DNA of 64,000 nt from Calditrichia bacterium (lineage in GTDB: Bacteria > Calditrichota > Calditrichia > Calditrichales > Calditrichaceae), in assembly GCA_026983775.1 (NCBI GenBank), contig JALSTK010000051.1, positions 1-64,000 on the forward strand, written 5' to 3'. The notes beneath the pieces are model-generated. The model was not told where the DNA came from and did not search any database. It was given only the letters and a program-made list of their open reading frames with translations. Positions within the stretch are counted from its first letter, which is position 1; every line of letters begins with the position of its first letter. Both the position numbers and the translations under genes were made by a program. This document shows, one piece after another, positions 645 through 8,663 of this stretch.

Positions 645-1199
645 ATGGAACTGGCCTATGGATTTATTGAAACACGGGGCTATATAGCGGCCATCGAAGC
701 GGCAGACGCCATGGTTAAAGCAGCCCGGGTGGAACTTGTCAAATGGCGTAAGGCGGGCGGCGCCCTGGTGCTGATAGTGGTAAAAGGTGAATTGGGTGCC
801 TGTCAGGCCGCAGTCAATGCCGGTAGTGTGGCCGCAGACCGCGTGGGGCAGCTAATTTCAGCCAATGTCATTCCCCGTCCCTTCGACGATACGGTTCTGC
901 TGGTAGAAACTTTTATGAAGGGCAGAAAAAAACAATCCTCTGCGGAAACGGGTACGCCCAAAAACAGGCCACAGAAAACCGGACGAAGAGCCGGACAAGG
1001 CTCCCGGGTAAAAACGCAAACGGTGCAGGAAAAACTTGAGGAACTTCTGAAAAAATCAAAACAGGGTCTTTCCCTTAAAGAGCTTTCCGGAAAGAGCGGT
1101 AATGATCAGAGTGAGGTCAGGATGATTCTCAAGCAAATGATGGATCAGGGTTTGGTGGAAAAGGTACAGAAGACTTACTTTTATACAGGCCGTAAATGA
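645..1199 (+). CDS. BMC-H shell protein with C-terminal winged-helix tail (EutK-like)
   Basis: This 184-residue protein has two parts. Residues 1-85 form a BMC domain: it opens with an E-T-R-G-Y strand, has the A-D-A-M-V-K-A-A helix, and ends with N-V-I-P-R-P, matching PduA/EutM hexamer proteins. Residues 91-127 are a disordered, strongly basic linker rich in Lys and Arg. Residues 128-184 look like a winged helix-turn-helix, with L-S-L-K-E-L-S as the first helix and a Y-F-Y wing at the end. EutK of the ethanolamine system has the same BMC-plus-nucleic-acid-binding architecture. It is the first gene of the operon and overlaps the parA-like gene by 4 bp (ATGA), implying coupled translation. I infer that the tail may tether compartments to DNA or to the ATPase. 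Confidence 0.85.
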   Translation: MELAYGFIETRGYIAAIEAADAMVKAARVELVKWRKAGGALVLIVVKGELGACQAAVNAGSVAADRVGQLISANVIPRPFDDTVLLVETFMKGRKKQSSAETGTPKNRPQKTGRRAGQGSRVKTQTVQEKLEELLKKSKQGLSLKELSGKSGNDQSEVRMILKQMMDQGLVEKVQKTYFYTGRK

Positions 1200-1963
1200 A
1201 ACTGATCGTTATCATCAACAATAAAGGCGGAGTGGGTAAAACGACCAGTGCCGTCAATCTCTCGGCCAGCCTGGCCCGCATGGGTAAAAAAACTTTGCTG
1301 GTTGATCTGGACCCTTCGGCCAGTACTTCCTTGCATTTGGGATTTGACAAACAGGGCAATCGGCATCAAACCATTTGCGACTATTTAATCAACCCTAATC
1401 GTCGATTGGCTGATTATATTTATGAAACGGACAGCGAGGGTCTGGACTGTCTGCCCTCGGAGCCGGCTTTGAGCGAATTTTATGATGAGATGCAGCAGGA
1501 GGAAGACACGGAATTTTTTCTGAAGCGCTCCGATTTTCCCCGTAAGTATGATTTGATTTTCTTTGACAGTCCGCCCAATATGGGCAATCTGGCTCTCAAT
1601 GCTCTGGCCATTGCTGATTATGCCCTGATTCCTGTTCAAACCCAGTATCTGGCCTTAAGCGGTTTGGAAGTTACTCTGAATGTAATTGAAAAAGCGCAGC
1701 GTCATTTGAATAAACGTTTAAAAATATTAGGACTTTTCGGCACGCAGTATGACCGGCGGACAAGAGTGGCCAAAGAAGTCTATGCTTTGATTCAGGATCG
1801 GTTCGGTCAACAGGTTTTTGAGACGATTATTGGTGTGAACAGCAAATTAACCGAGGCCTTTAATGCTCAAAAACCAATTTTAAAATATGCGCCGTCAGCC
1901 CGAGGTGCAAAAGAGTATCAGGCTCTGGCTGCGGAAATTTTAAAACGTTTGAAAATAACATAA
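1196..1963 (+). CDS. ParA/MinD-family ATPase within the BMC operon (McdA-like role proposed)
   Basis: This 255-residue protein has the deviant Walker A motif K-G-G-V-G-K-T-T (residues 10-17, signature Lys10 present), a Walker A' segment V-D-L-D-P at 36-40 and a Walker B segment F-F-D-S-P-P, all as in Soj/ParA. The usual Q-G-N after D-x-D-P is S-A-S here, a small divergence. ParA ATPases form ATP-dependent dimers on the nucleoid and move plasmids, chromosomes or carboxysomes (McdA). No parB is adjacent. The gene overlaps the shell-protein gene upstream and is followed 10 bp later by the small EutQ-N-like gene, so a role in microcompartment positioning is a reasonable inference. A stray chromosomal Soj is the alternative. 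Confidence 0.9.
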   Translation: MKLIVIINNKGGVGKTTSAVNLSASLARMGKKTLLVDLDPSASTSLHLGFDKQGNRHQTICDYLINPNRRLADYIYETDSEGLDCLPSEPALSEFYDEMQQEEDTEFFLKRSDFPRKYDLIFFDSPPNMGNLALNALAIADYALIPVQTQYLALSGLEVTLNVIEKAQRHLNKRLKILGLFGTQYDRRTRVAKEVYALIQDRFGQQVFETIIGVNSKLTEAFNAQKPILKYAPSARGAKEYQALAAEILKRLKIT

Positions 1964-1973
1964 AGTTGTTAGC

Positions 1974-2309
1974 ATGAAGAAACTCATTTCAGCCCTGACC
2001 ATCCGTCAGGCCAAAAAAGACGGAGTACAGGAAATAATAATCGAATCTGGTAAAACGATTGTCACTCCGGAAGCACGCAGTATGGCCAAGGATTTCGGCA
2101 TTGCCCTGATGGATTCCGGAGTAACAGGTTCCCACGGAAATCAATCTGAGTTACCCGGTAAACTGGACGAAAAACTGGTACGCCAGGTGGTGGAACAGGT
2201 GGTTGAGAAATTACCGCCGGATAAGCGTCAACCGGAGCTGGTACGGGAAGTAGTTGTTGAGGTCCTTTCCGAGTATTTAAACGGTAGAGAGTACCGTAAC
2301 AAGCGATGA
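1974..2309 (+). CDS. Small EutQ-N-like protein with two encapsulation-peptide-like helices
   Basis: This 111-residue protein starts with a segment (about 1-47) resembling the N-terminus of EutQ: M-K-K-L-I-S, then I-V-T-P-E-A-R and a D-F-G-I close. The acetate-kinase-like cupin domain of EutQ is absent. After a Gly/Ser-rich linker come two amphipathic helices with hydrophobic i/i+3/i+4 spacing, at about 64-80 and 87-102. Both resemble the peptides that target enzymes to BMC shells, such as the N-terminus of the aldehyde dehydrogenase at 3995. It overlaps the next gene by 4 bp (ATGA). I infer a scaffold or adaptor that links cargo to shell, or a partner of the ParA-like ATPase. No enzymatic motif is visible. 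Confidence 0.6.
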   Translation: MKKLISALTIRQAKKDGVQEIIIESGKTIVTPEARSMAKDFGIALMDSGVTGSHGNQSELPGKLDEKLVRQVVEQVVEKLPPDKRQPELVREVVVEVLSEYLNGREYRNKR

Positions 2310-3319
2310 TATCCGAGACCGTAATGAATCTTTGGCGGGAACGGTGTAGTAAGAGGCCGAAAACCGTAGTCTTCACCGATGCCCTGGATGTTCGGGTGTT
2401 AGAGGCCGCCCGCTATTTGAAAGACGAGTCTTTTACGGATCCGATTCTAATAGGAAGTCCGGTTCAGATCAGGGAGTTTGCGGAAACGTACCATATCTCC
2501 ACCCGCGGTATCCGGGTGCGCGCTCCGCGTCATGATAAGGATTTCGATCATCTGGTACGTGCTTTCTTTGATAAACGATCTCAAAAGGGGTTATCCCGGT
2601 TCGAGGCGACGGAGCGTCTGGCTTCGCCCTTGTGGTACGGAATGATGCTATTGAAACAGGGTGCGGCTCAGGCTTGCCTTTCCGGCAATCAACAGCCGAT
2701 CGGTGAAGTGCTGCATGCGGCTCTGCAGGTACTTGGTCCGCCAGAGGAGGGAAAGACGGTTTCCTCTTTTTACCTGATGATCGGTCCGGATGAAAAAAAC
2801 ATCTATGCCTTTGCCGACGGGAGTGTTTTAATTCGGCCGACCGCCGCCCAATTGAAGGATGTGGCTATTGATACAGCGCGGAATTTTGAAAAACTAACGG
2901 GCCGCATCCCGAAAGTGGCTCTGCTATCGTTTTCGACCAAAGGCAGTGCGCAGCATGAAAGGACGGATAAAGTCAGGGAAGCCGTGGAATTAATCCGAAA
3001 AGAGGACCCCGCTTTGCTGGTGGACGGGGAACTTCAATTCGATGCGGCGATGGTCCCGGCTGTAGCAGCTCAAAAGGCACCGCAAAGTCCGTTAAAAGGG
3101 GAAGCCAATGTGTTTGTTTTTCCTTCTTTGAATGCAGCGAACATCGGCTATAAAATTGCCAGGGATCTGGTCGGTTACAAAGCTTACGGGGCTTTTGTAC
3201 AGGGTTTACCCAGACCGATCGTAGCTTTAACGGCCCATTGTACGACCCGGCAAATTATCGAGACCACCCTGCTCACTTCCTGCTTAACGGCAAAAGTGAA
3301 GTTGGAGGTCGGAGGATAA
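2306..3319 (+). CDS. Divergent EutD/Pta-family phosphotransacylase
   Basis: This 337-residue protein has the length and fold signatures of phosphate acetyltransferase: F-S-T-K-G-S-A at 209-215, D-G-E-L-Q-F-D at 240-246, and N-I-G-Y-K-I-A at 279-285. In BMCs such an enzyme turns acyl-CoA into acyl-phosphate and regenerates CoA. The C-terminal catalytic block, normally L-S-R-G-C-S followed by an acidic residue, reads L-T-A-H-C-T-T-R-Q (308-316). Ser309, Arg310 and Asp316 of the Methanosarcina enzyme, implicated in catalysis, are therefore Thr, Ala and Gln. The family R-P-A-L-Q motif has His at 137. Either the substrate or mechanism differs, or the protein is catalytically dead. It overlaps the preceding gene by 4 bp. 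Confidence 0.85.
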   Translation: MISETVMNLWRERCSKRPKTVVFTDALDVRVLEAARYLKDESFTDPILIGSPVQIREFAETYHISTRGIRVRAPRHDKDFDHLVRAFFDKRSQKGLSRFEATERLASPLWYGMMLLKQGAAQACLSGNQQPIGEVLHAALQVLGPPEEGKTVSSFYLMIGPDEKNIYAFADGSVLIRPTAAQLKDVAIDTARNFEKLTGRIPKVALLSFSTKGSAQHERTDKVREAVELIRKEDPALLVDGELQFDAAMVPAVAAQKAPQSPLKGEANVFVFPSLNAANIGYKIARDLVGYKAYGAFVQGLPRPIVALTAHCTTRQIIETTLLTSCLTAKVKLEVGG

Positions 3320-3367
3320 AATCATAGAGGAAACAAATCGGAACAACCGAATGATTAGGAGAGATAA

Positions 3368-3655
3368 ATGGAAGCATTAGGCATGATTGAAACCAAGGGA
3401 TTAGTAGGATTGATCGAGGCCTCGGATGCCATGGTTAAAGCGGCCAAAGTGGAATTGGTTGCTTATCAGCAGATCGGCGGTGGCTATGTGACGGCCCTGG
3501 TACGCGGTGATGTAGCGGCCTGTAAAGCGGCAACGGATGCCGGAGCGGCTGCAGCGGAACGGGTCGGCGAGCTAATTTCCGTGCATGTGATTCCGCGTCC
3601 TCACGATGATCTGGAAGATGTTTTTCCCATTAAACTGCGCAGCAAACAGAAATAA
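3368..3655 (+). CDS. BMC-H hexameric shell protein, copy 1
   Basis: This 95-residue single-domain BMC protein is of the PduA/EutM type. It shows the E-T-K-G-L-V opening strand, the A-S-D-A-M-V-K-A-A helix, a pore loop with I-G-G-G-Y (36-40) and the closing H-V-I-P-R-P strand. Such proteins form hexamers that tile the shell facets, with the pore loop letting substrates through. The pore is glycine-lined rather than serine-lined as in PduA. It is preceded by an AGGAG element 6 nt from the ATG. It differs from the next gene's product at only 10 of 95 aligned residues, six of them in the first 90. Confidence 0.95.
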
Positions 3656-3683
3656 ACGGAATTTCTAAATAAAGGAGAAGCAA

Positions 3684-3974
3684 ATGATGGAAGCATTAGG
3701 TATGATCGAAACCAAGGGCTTGGTGGGTCTGATTGAAGCTTCGGATGCCATGGTTAAAGCAGCCCGTGTTAAATTGGTTGCTTACGAGCAGATCGGCGGT
3801 GGCTATGTGACCGCTCTGGTACGCGGAGATGTGGCGGCCTGTAAAGCGGCGACGGATGCCGGAGCGGCCGCAGCGGAACGGGTCGGTGAGCTGGTCTCCG
3901 TGCATGTGATTCCGCGTCCTCACGGTGATCTGGAAGAGGTTTTCCCGATTAAACTTAAAGGAACCATTAAATAA
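3684..3974 (+). CDS. BMC-H hexameric shell protein, copy 2
   Basis: This is the tandem paralogue of the gene 28 bp upstream. It encodes 96 residues from the ATG at 3684, or 95 from the ATG at 3687, which aligns exactly with the start of copy 1. A GGAG lies 6 nt before the first ATG, the same spacing as copy 1, so I keep the first. The pore loop is identical to copy 1 (I-G-G-G-Y). Changes such as K27R, E29K, Q34E and D80G alter surface charge, and the last five residues differ most. The pair probably forms mixed or alternative hexamers. A recent duplication is the simplest origin. Confidence 0.94.
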
Positions 3975-3994
3975 TCGGAAGCAGGTAACAGCTC

Positions 3995-5407
3995 ATGAGC
4001 TTATCATCTCAGGAAATCGCGCAGATCGTCAATTCGGTTCTAACTAAACTGGAAAACAAATCGGCGCCGGCTCGATCTTCGACGGCCAATTTGGCAACCG
4101 GAGTTTTTCAGACTCTGGATGAAGCCGTTGCAGCGGCTCATCAGGCCCAAAAACAGATTCGCAACCTGGAGTTTCGCGGGAAAATCATTCAGGCGATTCG
4201 TCAGGCCGGTATCGAGCACGCCCGGGAATGGGCCGAAATGGCTGTCCGGGAAACGGGAATGGGCAATATTGCGGATAAGACCGCCAAAAATATTTCACAG
4301 GCGGAACGTACCCCGGGTATCGAGGATTTGCGTCCCGAAGCCCTTTCCGGAGACCATGGTTTGACCATTACCGAAAATGCCGCCTGGGGAGTCATTGCTT
4401 CAATTACCCCTTCCACCAATCCGGCGGCAACCATTCTGAATAATACGATCAGTATGGTCTCTGCAGGTAACGCAGTGGTGTACGGTGTGCATCCGGCGGC
4501 AAAAAAAGTTTCACAACATGCCATTTCCGTGATCAATGAGGCGATTGCCCAAATAGGCGGGCCGCGCAATCTACTGGTGACCGTGGCCGAACCGTCTATT
4601 GAAGTCGCCCGGCAGTTATTCCAGTTCCCGGGAATCGATCTGTTGGTGGTCACCGGCGGGGAATCGGTGGTGGAAGCGGCGCGTAAGCATACCAATAAAC
4701 GGTTGATGGCGGCCGGAGCCGGTAATCCGCCGGTAGTAGTGGATGAGACGGCCGATATCGCCAGGGCGGCCAAAGATATTGTCTGGGGAGCCTCCTTCGA
4801 TAATAATATCGTGTGTGCCGATGAAAAAGAAATCATTGCCGTGGATCAGATCGCGGATCAGCTTAAGCAGGAAATGCAGAAACACAAAGCCGTGGAATTA
4901 TCAGCCGCTCAGAGCGAGGCTCTGGCCCGGGTTATTTTAGAAGGTTATCCTGACAAACCGGTTATTAACCGTAAACTGGTGGGTCGGGATCCTAAAGTAT
5001 ACGCCGAAAAGATCGGTCTGAATATAGCGGCGGATACGCGTCTGCTTTTTATGGAGACCGATAAAAATCATCCCTTCGCCCGTCTGGAATTAATGATGCC
5101 TATTGTTCCCTTAGTCAGAGCGAGGGATGCGAATGAAGCGATCGATCTGGCTCTGGAGCTGGAACGGGGTCTGCACCATACAGCCGCCATGCATTCCAAA
5201 AATATCGATCATATGAATCGTATGGCCAATGAAATCAACACCAGCATCTTCGTTAAAAACGGACCCTGTCTGGCCGGATTGGGCTTCGGAGGGGAAGGCT
5301 GGACCTCCATGACTATTACCACTCCCACCGGTGAAGGAGTGACTTCGGCCCGCAGCTTTGTACGTCTGAGGCGTTGCGTGATCGTGGACCATTTCCGAAT
5401 TGTGTAA
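3995..5407 (+). CDS. CoA-acylating aldehyde dehydrogenase (EutE/PduP type) with encapsulation peptide
   Basis: This 470-residue enzyme matches EutE/PduP in length and motifs. It oxidises an aldehyde to acyl-CoA with NAD+ and CoA inside the compartment. Residues 1-20 form a short amphipathic helix (I-A-Q-I-V-N-S-V-L-T-K-L), followed by a Ser/Ala-rich linker to about residue 33, which is the classic lumen-targeting peptide. The nucleotide-binding region includes I-T-P-S-T-N-P (137-143). The catalytic Cys274 lies in N-N-I-V-C-A-D-E-K. The C-terminal F-G-G-E-G-W-T motif is typical of the family. The actual aldehyde cannot be read from sequence, because the enzyme that would make it is not in this operon. 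Confidence 0.93.
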   Translation: MSLSSQEIAQIVNSVLTKLENKSAPARSSTANLATGVFQTLDEAVAAAHQAQKQIRNLEFRGKIIQAIRQAGIEHAREWAEMAVRETGMGNIADKTAKNISQAERTPGIEDLRPEALSGDHGLTITENAAWGVIASITPSTNPAATILNNTISMVSAGNAVVYGVHPAAKKVSQHAISVINEAIAQIGGPRNLLVTVAEPSIEVARQLFQFPGIDLLVVTGGESVVEAARKHTNKRLMAAGAGNPPVVVDETADIARAAKDIVWGASFDNNIVCADEKEIIAVDQIADQLKQEMQKHKAVELSAAQSEALARVILEGYPDKPVINRKLVGRDPKVYAEKIGLNIAADTRLLFMETDKNHPFARLELMMPIVPLVRARDANEAIDLALELERGLHHTAAMHSKNIDHMNRMANEINTSIFVKNGPCLAGLGFGGEGWTSMTITTPTGEGVTSARSFVRLRRCVIVDHFRIV

Positions 5408-5409
5408 TC

Positions 5410-6255
5410 ATGTCGACTATGAAAGAAGTCAATCGTCGTCTGCAACTTATTGAACGTATCGTAAATGACGACCATCCGCAAAAGGTGCCATCCAAAATTC
5501 ATGTGGGCGTTGATTTGGGCACGGCGGATATCATGGTTATGGCAACAGATGAATCCGGGGAACCGCTGGCCGCATTTATGGAATGGGCGGAAGTGGTACG
5601 AGACGGCATCGTGCTCGATTACTGGGGGGCAACACAGATTGTCAAGCGTTTAATTCAACGCATTGAACAGAAATTAAGCATTCATATTCAACAGGCCATT
5701 AGTTCTTTCCCTCCCGGAACCGATCCCCGTACTTCAGAAAATGTTATTCAGGCCGCAGGGCTAAGTGTAGAAACCATTATCGATGAACCTTCCAGCGTGG
5801 TTCGACTGCTTAATTTGAAAGAGGGAACCGTCATTGATATAGGCGGCGGCACAACCGGCTTAGCCGTGGTTAAAGGGGGTAAAATTGTGTATACAGCCGA
5901 TGAAGCCACAGGCGGACACCATGTAACACTCACTATTGCCGGCAACCGTAAAATAACATACGAAGAAGCCGAAGCACTGAAATGTAACGGTCAGGCTGAA
6001 AATCTTTTGCCTGTGGTCGAACCCGTTTTTCAGAAAATGGCCGATATTCTGAACAACCATATTGGCAAACAGACCGTACAAAAAATATATTGCAGCGGCG
6101 GAACCTGCTGTTTCCCGCACATGGATCGGGTTCTGCAGGAAGAACTTCCCGGGAAAGAAATCATTATGCCCTACAATCCCTTGTACCTGACTCCCCTGGC
6201 TATTGCCTCGTATCGTGTAGAAAAGGAAGGCTATGAACCGACAACAGATGCTTGA
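5410..6255 (+). CDS. eutJ: EutJ-like actin/Hsp70-fold protein
   Basis: I use the ATG at 5410, 2 bp after the dehydrogenase stop. A longer reading from 5374 would only add residues overlapping that gene. The 281-residue product matches EutJ in size. It shows the actin/Hsp70 ATP-binding signatures: V-G-V-D-L-G-T-A-D near the N-terminus, D-I-G-G-G-T-T-G in the middle and C-S-G-G-T-C-C-F near the end, plus the EutJ-typical E-W-A-E-V-V-R-D-G-I. EutJ is thought to act as a chaperone or reactivase for BMC enzymes, although its exact job is unproven. It overlaps the next gene by 23 bp. A reactivase-like protein hints that the missing signature enzyme may need reactivation, as cobalamin or radical enzymes do. 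Confidence 0.9.
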   Translation: MSTMKEVNRRLQLIERIVNDDHPQKVPSKIHVGVDLGTADIMVMATDESGEPLAAFMEWAEVVRDGIVLDYWGATQIVKRLIQRIEQKLSIHIQQAISSFPPGTDPRTSENVIQAAGLSVETIIDEPSSVVRLLNLKEGTVIDIGGGTTGLAVVKGGKIVYTADEATGGHHVTLTIAGNRKITYEEAEALKCNGQAENLLPVVEPVFQKMADILNNHIGKQTVQKIYCSGGTCCFPHMDRVLQEELPGKEIIMPYNPLYLTPLAIASYRVEKEGYEPTTDA

Positions 6256-7573
6256 TAAAATAAGGAAGGCCGGTGTGATCGGGGCGGGAGGAGCCGGATT
6301 TCCGACCTATAAAAAGCTGGATGCCAGCGTGGAACACATTATCGCCAACGGGGCGGAATGCGAGCCGCTTCTTTACAAAGACCGTCAGACCATGCTACAA
6401 GAGCCCGAAGCTTTGATGCGCGGTTTGCAGATCATGCAGGAAATCACAGGCGCTGATAAAGTGACCATCGCTCTGAAGGAAAAGAATCGTGATATTGCCG
6501 AAAAATATACCCCTATGGCAGAAAAACATGGTTTTCGGTTTTTTGTCTATGAGGATGTATATCCGGCCGGGGATGAACACATATTAGTTTATGAGGTTAC
6601 CGGACGTCTCATTCCGCCGGGAGGGATACCGTTGCAGGTGGGCTGTGTGGTCGATAACGTGGAAACGATTGTCAATATCGCCCATGCCGTGGATGAGGAT
6701 CGGCCTGTGATCGAAAAATATGTGACGGTAACCGGGGAGGTGCAAGAAGCGCTGACCTTGAGGGTACCGGTCGGTACTCCCTTCGAAACCTGTATCGGAC
6801 AGGCCGGCGGATTAACAACGGATGAGCCTGTGGTCTTAACCGGAGGCGTAATGATGGGCGGCATCAGCCCGGATTTATCCAATCCTGTGGCCAGGAATAT
6901 CGGCGGACTGATTATCCTTCCTGAAGATCATTATTTGGTCAAGAAGAAGTCAACGCCCAAAGAATCCTATACGCGTATCGGTCATGGCCAGTGTGATCAG
7001 TGTTCGCTATGCACGGAAATGTGTCCCCGTTACCTGTTAGGACATCCTCTTGAACCGCATAAGGTGATGCGCAACCTGCTCATGACCGGAGAAGCAAAGG
7101 AACGGGCCAGCCTATGGGCTCAGTTCTGTGTCGAATGTAATGTCTGTACCATGATCGCCTGTCCCGAGGGGCTTGATCCCATGCATATTTGTATCGACGC
7201 CAAGCAATTGTTACGGGAAAAGAATCTGGCCCGCACGGATGAAGAGATGAAACGGTTAGTACGTGATGCCCACCCGGTAAGAAAAGGGCGTGAAATTCCC
7301 ATTCAAACCGTTTACCGTCGTTTGGGACTAACTCCTTATGACCGGCATGCGGAATTTGATCCTGTTACCGTCCGGCCCGGAACGGTCATCCTTCCATTGG
7401 ATTCTCATATCGGTCAGCCGGCCCGTCCCCTGGTTCAAGTGGGCGACAGGGTGAAACAGGGACAAATTATTGCCGATGTGGAGGCGGATGCCCTGGGCAC
7501 GCCGATACATGCCAGTATTAACGGAACAGTTACCCAAATCGAAGCGCGGGGTATTGAGATTAAAACCAGTTAA
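6233..7573 (+). CDS. pduS: PduS-like FMN/4Fe-4S electron-transfer protein (RnfC family)
   Basis: This 446-residue protein matches PduS. It begins with the RnfC-type glycine-rich motif G-A-G-G-A-G-F-P and N-G-A-E-C-E-P, which bind FMN/NADH. It has two ferredoxin clusters: C-D-Q-C-S-L-C-T-E-M-C-P and C-V-E-C-N-V-C-T-M-I-A-C-P. A lipoyl/barrel-sandwich-like C-terminal segment ends at 7573. PduS reduces cobalamin or passes electrons across the shell in the propanediol system, and related proteins occur in glycyl-radical BMCs. It is directly followed (14 bp) by the Fe-S trimer PduT homologue, its usual partner. The pair implies redox exchange with the lumen. Confidence 0.92.
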   Translation: MNRQQMLDKIRKAGVIGAGGAGFPTYKKLDASVEHIIANGAECEPLLYKDRQTMLQEPEALMRGLQIMQEITGADKVTIALKEKNRDIAEKYTPMAEKHGFRFFVYEDVYPAGDEHILVYEVTGRLIPPGGIPLQVGCVVDNVETIVNIAHAVDEDRPVIEKYVTVTGEVQEALTLRVPVGTPFETCIGQAGGLTTDEPVVLTGGVMMGGISPDLSNPVARNIGGLIILPEDHYLVKKKSTPKESYTRIGHGQCDQCSLCTEMCPRYLLGHPLEPHKVMRNLLMTGEAKERASLWAQFCVECNVCTMIACPEGLDPMHICIDAKQLLREKNLARTDEEMKRLVRDAHPVRKGREIPIQTVYRRLGLTPYDRHAEFDPVTVRPGTVILPLDSHIGQPARPLVQVGDRVKQGQIIADVEADALGTPIHASINGTVTQIEARGIEIKTS

Positions 7574-7587
7574 GGGAAGGGATTTTT

Positions 7588-8139
7588 ATGAAGGGCTCTG
7601 CCATCGGAATTGTGGAAACATCGAGTATCGCCAAAGGATTTGAAGTGGCTGACGCCGTCCTGAAACGAGCCGATGTGCAAATCGTGGTCAATAGAACCAT
7701 CTGTCCGGGTAAATACATGGTTTTAATTAGTGGCGATGTGGATGCGGTGAACGCCAGTATTGAAGCCGGCGTTGCGGTTGGGGCCCATACCGTGGTGGAT
7801 CATTTTATTATTCCCAATATACATCCTGATGTTTTTCCGGCCATCAGTGGTGTGGATCATTTGCCGGAAATTGAAGCCCTGGGGGTGATTGAAGGTTTTT
7901 CCGTCGCTTCGGTGATCGAAGCGGCCGATGCCGCGGTTAAAGCGGCCACGGTACAGTTGATCACCGTGCATTTGGCCATGGCCATCGGCGGCAAGGGATT
8001 TGTAACCCTTACCGGAGATGTGGCCTCCGTGCAGTCGGCCGTGGATGCCGGAGCGGCCATTATCGAAAGCAAGGGTCTGCTGGTGGAGAAAATCGTTATT
8101 CCCTCTCCTCGTCCCGAAATCGTTCAGGAATTTATCTGA
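7588..8139 (+). CDS. pduT: BMC-T shell protein with Fe-S pore cysteine (PduT-like)
   Basis: This 183-residue protein has two tandem BMC domains (about 4-88 and 92-180), making it a pseudohexameric trimer. The first domain has C-P-G-K-Y with Cys39, matching Cys38 of PduT, which co-ordinates a 4Fe-4S cluster in the central pore of the trimer. The second has the usual I-G-G-K-G loop. It probably conducts electrons between the lumen and outside, with the PduS-like protein encoded just upstream. It is the last gene of the operon and overlaps the convergent FMN-reductase gene by 16 bp. I see no terminator between them. An AGGGAAGGG ribosome-binding stretch precedes the ATG. Confidence 0.93.
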   Translation: MKGSAIGIVETSSIAKGFEVADAVLKRADVQIVVNRTICPGKYMVLISGDVDAVNASIEAGVAVGAHTVVDHFIIPNIHPDVFPAISGVDHLPEIEALGVIEGFSVASVIEAADAAVKAATVQLITVHLAMAIGGKGFVTLTGDVASVQSAVDAGAAIIESKGLLVEKIVIPSPRPEIVQEFI

Positions 8140-8663
8140 TTTTTCCTTAGAGCCTTTGTATATCGTATCAGACCTGTCGTTAATTCTTTTAGACGTCTTT
8201 GTAATTCCGCTGAAGGAAGATTCTCCCCGTTAAAATCATCGGCCGTACTATAGACAAAACGGGGGATAATCGTACAGCGGAATTCCAGCATCAAACTATT
8301 ACCGAAGGACATAAAGGACATATAACTGTTCTTCCCACCCGCCGCAATAAGAAATCCGATGACTTTGTCGTTCCAGACTTCGCCGGTTAGTTCCACGGCA
8401 TTTTTAAGAGCGGAGTTCACTGCGTAATTGTAAACCGGTCCGGCAAGAAGAATACCTTGTGCCCGGGCGATAATCGACTTCAGCTTAAGAACATTCAGGT
8501 TAATCTGGCTTTTGTCTCCGTCGCATAAGGGCAGAGGGAATTCACGCAAATCGACATATTCCACCGGAACGGCTTGTGTTTGTAACAAAGCAACGGCTTT
8601 TTCGGCCAGAATTCGGCTGCGGCTTTCCGGGTACAGGCTGCCGCTTAAAACTAAATAGGACAT
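8124..8663 (-). CDS. NADPH-dependent FMN reductase family flavoprotein
   Basis: This 179-residue protein has a flavodoxin-like fold typical of the FMN_red family. S-G-S-L-Y-P-E-S-R-S near the start is the FMN phosphate-binding loop. A-G-P-V-Y-N-Y at about 75 and the following A-L-K-N helix form the isoalloxazine side. It likely reduces FMN or small acceptors with NAD(P)H in the cytoplasm. It runs toward the microcompartment operon and overlaps the BMC-T gene by 16 bp. It is probably not part of the BMC, because it is on the other strand and has no targeting helix. Its substrate cannot be told from sequence. Confidence 0.85.
   Translation of the reverse strand: MSYLVLSGSLYPESRSRILAEKAVALLQTQAVPVEYVDLREFPLPLCDGDKSQINLNVLKLKSIIARAQGILLAGPVYNYAVNSALKNAVELTGEVWNDKVIGFLIAAGGKNSYMSFMSFGNSLMLEFRCTIIPRFVYSTADDFNGENLPSAELQRRLKELTTGLIRYTKALRKNQINS

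Follow-up and report, generated by a model that had tools for sequence, protein, structure and literature searches.

EutQN, a stand-alone protein of 111 amino acids encoded in a bacterial-microcompartment operon (1974-2309, + strand; positions are those of the window, the whole 64,000-nucleotide stretch of DNA that was analysed), is likely a natural minimal EutQ-type shell-cargo linker, lacking the enzyme half of EutQ, in a dispersed deoxyribose-type (SPU) metabolosome. By analogy with EutQ, it probably ties the enzymes of the organelle to its protein shell. This reading builds on homology over EutQ residues 1-100, the conservation of both C-terminal helices, the position of the gene in the operon, and the encapsulation peptides of the cargo; the assignment of binding roles to its parts follows Salmonella EutQ. 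The linker function of EutQ is known, and what is new is the cupin-less stand-alone form conserved in Calditrichota.

Full-length, stand-alone orthologues of EutQN (90-108 amino acids) were found in 18 Calditrichota genomes belonging to two families, and within-genus comparisons gave dN/dS values of ~0.06-0.23. The open reading frame is therefore real and under purifying selection, not a chance ORF. A search for related loci returned nothing with the single EutQN protein as query, and Calditrichota only with a five-row subset of the EutQN alignment.

Pfam reports no significant domain in EutQN; the cupin (PF06249) is absent, and the reading frame stops at residue 111. The NCBIfam EutQ model (NF012001) matches EutQN 1-100 to EutQ 1-100 of 233 (E 1.9e-11), and hhalign aligned 16 members of the EutQN family with E. 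coli EutQ 1-99 over 96 columns at 98.7% probability (E 4e-16). Sequence identity between EutQN and EutQ is only 25-27%. By these alignments, EutQN is EutQ 1-100 minus the cupin, a predicted EutQ N-domain linker protein, and a full EutQ is excluded. An earlier note on this DNA had described a tiny protein with a EutQ-like N-terminal sequence and no cupin, and both points are borne out; its claim that only the first ~47 residues of EutQ are kept does not hold, as the NCBIfam and hhalign matches span EutQ 1-100. The protein and its parts are:

1974-2309, + strand: EutQN, stand-alone EutQ N-terminal protein, 111 amino acids, start codon through stop codon
1974-2114, + strand: EutQ-N domain, residues 1-47, predicted beta-alpha-beta-beta-alpha-beta, with H1 at 7-15 and H2 at 32-41 (model and 27-domain alignment)
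2115-2168, + strand: disordered, unconserved linker, residues 48-65 (pLDDT <50 at residues 50-59; identity 0.08)
2169-2210, + strand: H3, residues 66-79, amphipathic, equivalent to EutQ H3 (model, conservation, H3/H4 alignment)
2232-2297, + strand: H4, residues 87-108, equivalent to EutQ H4, with V93/V97 aligned to cargo-peptide-binding EutQ residues (model, H3/H4 alignment)

AlphaFold2, run on the EutQN family, predicts beta strands at residues 3-5, 20-23, 28-30 and 44-47, helices at 7-15 and 32-41, a linker, and helices at 66-79 and 87-108, with modest overall confidence (pLDDT 75, pTM 0.38). In the linker between the N-domain and the C-terminal helices pLDDT is below 50, indicative of disorder. 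The four-helix layout is common to this model and to EutQ 1-99, for which it was described in Salmonella (PMC12487888). The two C-terminal helices noticed earlier are thus present, although their ends differ (64-80 and 87-102 had been given), and they stand apart from the N-domain in the model rather than packing into one globular domain. The helices had also been taken for additions to the EutQ sequence. We aligned H3/H4 separately, so that the N-domain could not drag the remainder of the alignment along, and E. coli EutQ 64-102 matched the H3/H4 of the family without gaps at a score of 29.6, against 25.1 for the best of 20,000 shuffles. On this comparison the two helices are EutQ's own H3 and H4, and nothing has been added.

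Mean pairwise identity within the family is 0.46 in the N-domain, the most conserved part of the protein, 0.38 in H3, 0.31 in H4 and 0.08 in the linker, and the second helix is thus conserved relative to the linker. Family-mean hydrophobic moments are 0.46 for H3 (shuffles 0.30, p 0.07) and 0.45 for H4 (shuffles 0.27, p 0.016). Foldseek of the EutQN model against the PDB gave nothing below E 0.001; its top match for the N-domain (1974-2114) is a resemblance to ~50 residues of LpxI (probability 1.00, TM 0.39, E 0.07). PDB sequence matches of EutQN comprised only designed helical repeats and weak Ras matches, which we judged to be artefacts of helix composition.

EutQN is encoded together with shell and cargo genes, as the third of ten tightly packed genes (645-8139) in the order BMC-H_wHTH, ParA, EutQN, PTA, two EutM-like BMC-H, EutE-like AldDH, EutJ-like, PduS/RnfC-like and BMC-T. 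The nine other genes are:

645-1199, + strand: BMC-H shell protein with a C-terminal winged helix, EutK-like architecture (BMC-H_wHTH); stop overlaps the ParA start (ATGA)
1196-1963, + strand: ParA/MinD-family ATPase
2306-3319, + strand: phosphotransacetylase (PTA), Pta/EutD type; start overlaps the EutQN stop (ATGA)
3368-3655, + strand: BMC-H shell protein, EutM-like
3684-3974, + strand: BMC-H shell protein, EutM-like
3995-5407, + strand: acylating aldehyde dehydrogenase (AldDH), EutE-like, with N-terminal encapsulation peptide SSQEIAQIVNSVLTKLE
5419-6255, + strand: EutJ-like actin-fold protein
6233-7573, + strand: PduS/RnfC-like flavo-iron-sulfur protein
7588-8139, + strand: BMC-T shell protein, tandem BMC domains, PduT-like

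The order EutQN-PTA-BMC-H-BMC-H-AldDH-EutJ has its counterpart in E. coli eutQ-(T)-D-M-N-E-J, so EutQN occupies the place of eutQ. In relatives with a complete contig, EutQN follows BMC-H_wHTH and ParA and precedes PTA, with the exception of G010; in G014 it lies at a contig end. A gene that we named by eye as FMN-reductase-like (8124-8663, - strand) overlaps the end of the BMC-T gene, and a 40% identical FMN-reductase-like gene adjoins the locus in G019 and G016 too.

The idea, already raised in the earlier note, that the protein bridges shell and cargo draws strong support from its homology to a region whose binding has been published, rather than from mere likeness of the helices to targeting peptides. 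In Salmonella, EutQ 1-99 suffices to target GFP to the compartment, cargo separates from the shell when residues 9-99 are missing, and compartments still form without the cupin (100-229) (PMC12487888). EutQ H1/H2 associate with the shell, and their removal separates cargo from shell; the EutC and EutE peptides are bound by H3/H4, and binding of the EutC peptide requires L89 and V93; and the stoichiometry reported for EutQ 1-99 is 1:1 (PMC12487888). Shifted by 4 positions, the five Salmonella EutQ residues named in that report all agree with E. coli EutQ, and L89/V93 correspond to E. coli L93/V97 and to EutQN V93/V97. Among the 16 EutQN family members, residue 97 is V or I in 15 and T in the other, and residue 93 varies among V, L, A and T; the two polar residues put forward as contacts in EutQ (Salmonella E64, R67) are not conserved here. 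On the cargo side, AldDH has a EutE/EutC-like encapsulation peptide in 15 of 15 relatives, as does the DeoC-type aldolase in each of the 10 genomes examined for it.

We propose that the N-terminal alpha/beta domain of EutQN (H1/H2) would dock at the inner face of the shell, that the H3/H4 hairpin on its flexible linker would bind the N-terminal encapsulation peptides of cargo, and that EutQN would couple core and shell during assembly. Its cargo would be AldDH from the same operon and deoxyribose-phosphate aldolase from a satellite locus. Encapsulation peptides assemble as trimeric bundles (PMC12339742), and H3, H4 and one cargo peptide may assemble likewise, which would fit the stoichiometry of EutQ 1-99. 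With the acetate-kinase/cupin half missing, EutQN would lack the enzymatic part of EutQ; since full EutQ dimerises through the cupin, EutQN may be monomeric or oligomerise differently.

EutQN would serve as a natural experiment on this mechanism, which was published in 2025: its lineage keeps the linker half without the enzyme half, and its cupin-less form is what the Salmonella deletion data predict should work. It would extend EutQ-type assembly from ethanolamine to deoxyribose-type compartments, and could provide a compact, ~100-residue, two-sided adaptor for engineered shells. Features that unite EutQN with EutQ (NF012001) 1-99 are the alpha/beta N-domain, the linker, H3/H4 and the conserved hydrophobic cargo-binding positions, as well as a gene ahead of those for phosphotransacetylase, EutM, EutE and EutJ. 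Unlike EutQ, EutQN has no cupin/acetate-kinase domain, and it would serve a ParA-bearing deoxyribose-type metabolosome of Calditrichota, whereas EutQ belongs to the ethanolamine operon. CcmN, CsoS2 and PduB 1-37 differ from EutQN in sequence and architecture. Their proposed role is equivalent to that of EutQN, and they have been named as linkers joining cargo to shell (PMC12487888).

The EutQ-N domain (EutQN residues 1-47) is present in many proteins, and in a 27-row alignment T31 and A34 are invariant and A38 nearly so. Searches of 385 genomes (E <= 1e-3) found the domain in 68; 67 of these have BMC shell genes, compared with a total of 118 shell-bearing genomes (Fisher p 5e-41, to be read only as a guide given that species are non-independent); outside Calditrichota, 47 of 47 EutQ-N genomes carry shell genes. 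The sole EutQ-N genome without them, G006, has only the RpiB fusion. The domain occurs in EutQ, at either end of RpiB, at the C-terminus of PduL and of TIGR02536/PduM-like proteins, in tandem, and in mini-proteins of 80-109 amino acids that combine one targeting-like helix with the domain (one was modelled). Its profile also finds E. coli EutT, which lay outside the profile, as the third best of 350 ORFs (E 7e-4). The TIGR02536/PduM family shares the domain with EutQN but carries it at the C-terminus, usually with an encapsulation-peptide-like helix at the N-terminus; its domain order is reversed, no H3/H4 hairpin follows the domain and, unlike EutQN, some members have an extra flavoprotein-like domain.

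That so many unrelated compartment proteins carry the N-domain points to a common, directly testable shell-docking module without a dedicated Pfam family. Our literature search found no paper describing the sharing of EutQ-N among these proteins, though it may still be reported. We consider it a serious but tentative possibility that metabolosomes generally use the domain as a shell-docking module, one that has yet to be named; for proteins other than EutQ, we infer the docking. Were this the case, compartments would join EutQ-N to an H3/H4 cargo clamp (EutQ, EutQN), to a single targeting helix (the 80-109-residue mini-linkers), to a second copy in tandem, or directly to an enzyme (RpiB, PduL, EutT and PduM-like flavoproteins), and EutQN would be one of the simplest natural forms of the module.

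Short stand-alone EutQ-N proteins in other BMC loci, which the earlier note had thought worth seeking, do occur, in the form of the 80-109-residue mini-proteins in other phyla; at shell loci L103, L111, L112, L113, L156-L159 and L161 the targeting-like helix stands before EutQ-N, in reverse order. PduL-type phosphotransacylases with a C-terminal EutQ-N domain were seen at L108:7225-8232, L164:6819-7580 and L166:2-871, and tandem EutQ-N proteins at L102:3341-3826 and L109:4594-5085. One tandem protein passes the Pfam threshold for the E3-binding (peripheral subunit-binding) domain; matches of EutQ-N to E3_binding are otherwise sub-threshold, and we took them as motif resemblance rather than family membership.

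An McdB-like role, in which EutQN would bind the adjacent ParA and also cargo or shell so that ParA spreads compartments over the nucleoid, appears unlikely. EutQN does lie directly between ParA and PTA in a packed operon, here and in every complete-locus relative except G010, and the distributions of EutQN and ParA are near-identical: orthologues of this kind of ParA (E <= 1e-55) occur in 18 of the 385 genomes searched, from the same two families, and 17 genomes hold both. McdB, the positioning adaptor of carboxysomes, is likewise a small adaptor whose gene lies next to that of a ParA-type ATPase in a microcompartment locus, but family searches showed no sequence relation between McdB and EutQN. 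Moreover, the EutQ-N domain and helices are not confined to ParA-bearing loci. EutQ does the linker job in eut operons without ParA, no ParA of this kind was detected near the mini-proteins and fusions of other phyla, and G010 (a genome only 73% complete) keeps BMC-H_wHTH-ParA-PTA while EutQN was not found there. EutQ-type shell-cargo linkage explains EutQN without ParA, and the ParA link suggested in the earlier note finds no support apart from adjacency.

BMC-H_wHTH appears to be a better candidate for the partner of ParA than EutQN, because it shares the architecture of EutK, which is needed for normal compartment distribution, and its stop codon overlaps the ParA start. EutK is a BMC-H protein with a tail thought to bind nucleic acid; without it, the Eut compartments of Salmonella remain at the poles, and a ParB-like role has been suggested by the authors (PMC12487888). 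The BMC-H_wHTH tail matches EutK weakly (E 0.1; 0.01 in a relative), and no close solved structure was found for the wHTH part. The segment 645-1963 would thus encode a candidate ParB/McdB-like shell protein and its ParA.

Less is to be said for a primary role of H3/H4 as tandem encapsulation peptides seeding the condensation of cargo, with the N-domain a passive tag without shell contact; we consider this quite improbable. In form the helices do resemble encapsulation peptides, H3 is similar to the AldDH peptide, and the two helices together could initiate trimeric peptide bundles (PMC12339742); homology, however, identifies them as EutQ H3/H4, the helices to which such peptides bind in EutQ. 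Against a passive N-domain stand its conservation (0.46), its recurrence on unrelated compartment proteins, and the separation of cargo from shell in EutQ without H1/H2 (PMC12487888). It is highly unlikely that EutQN is a decayed or subunit-like fragment of EutQ serving chiefly to keep the adjacent PTA inside the shell. In favour of this, the two genes overlap by ATGA and are adjacent in relatives, PTA has by eye no encapsulation-peptide motif at its N-terminus, and elsewhere a phosphotransacylase, PduL, carries EutQ-N directly at its C-terminus. Purifying selection speaks against decay, however, and H3/H4 retain the hydrophobic residues to which peptides of other enzymes bind.

The compartment that EutQN would serve as shell-cargo linker can be read from its gene content. 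A DeoC-type aldolase and RpiB are encoded in the genome, dispersed, outside the main shell-gene locus: BMC-P is found with DeoC, whose N-terminus is encapsulation-peptide-like, and pyrimidine-nucleoside phosphorylase (G000:C16), a phosphopentomutase-like (DeoB) metalloenzyme with BMC-P genes (G000:C21), RpiB fused to a EutQ-N domain (G000:C100), and BMC-P with an ACT protein and DUF711 (G000:C121). The pairing of BMC-P with DeoC recurs in several genera. Since DeoC and RpiB are SPU hallmarks (Sutter et al., PMC8217296), the compartment is most likely a dispersed SPU metabolosome of the deoxyribose type.

Axen et al. called the Caldithrix abyssi locus a metabolosome with an incomplete core, no signature enzyme having been seen (PMC4207490), and scattered shell vertex genes and deoxyribose enzymes (G000:C16, C21, C100, C121; L046-L049) would explain this filing. 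The RpiB fusion with an N-terminal EutQ-N domain, present in most relatives, has no H3/H4 and lies downstream of a histidine ammonia-lyase gene (G000:C100:11902-12531, L046). The ACT-domain protein encoded beside BMC-P on G000:C121 (L049:7790-8245) carries two tandem N-terminal helices reminiscent of H3/H4.
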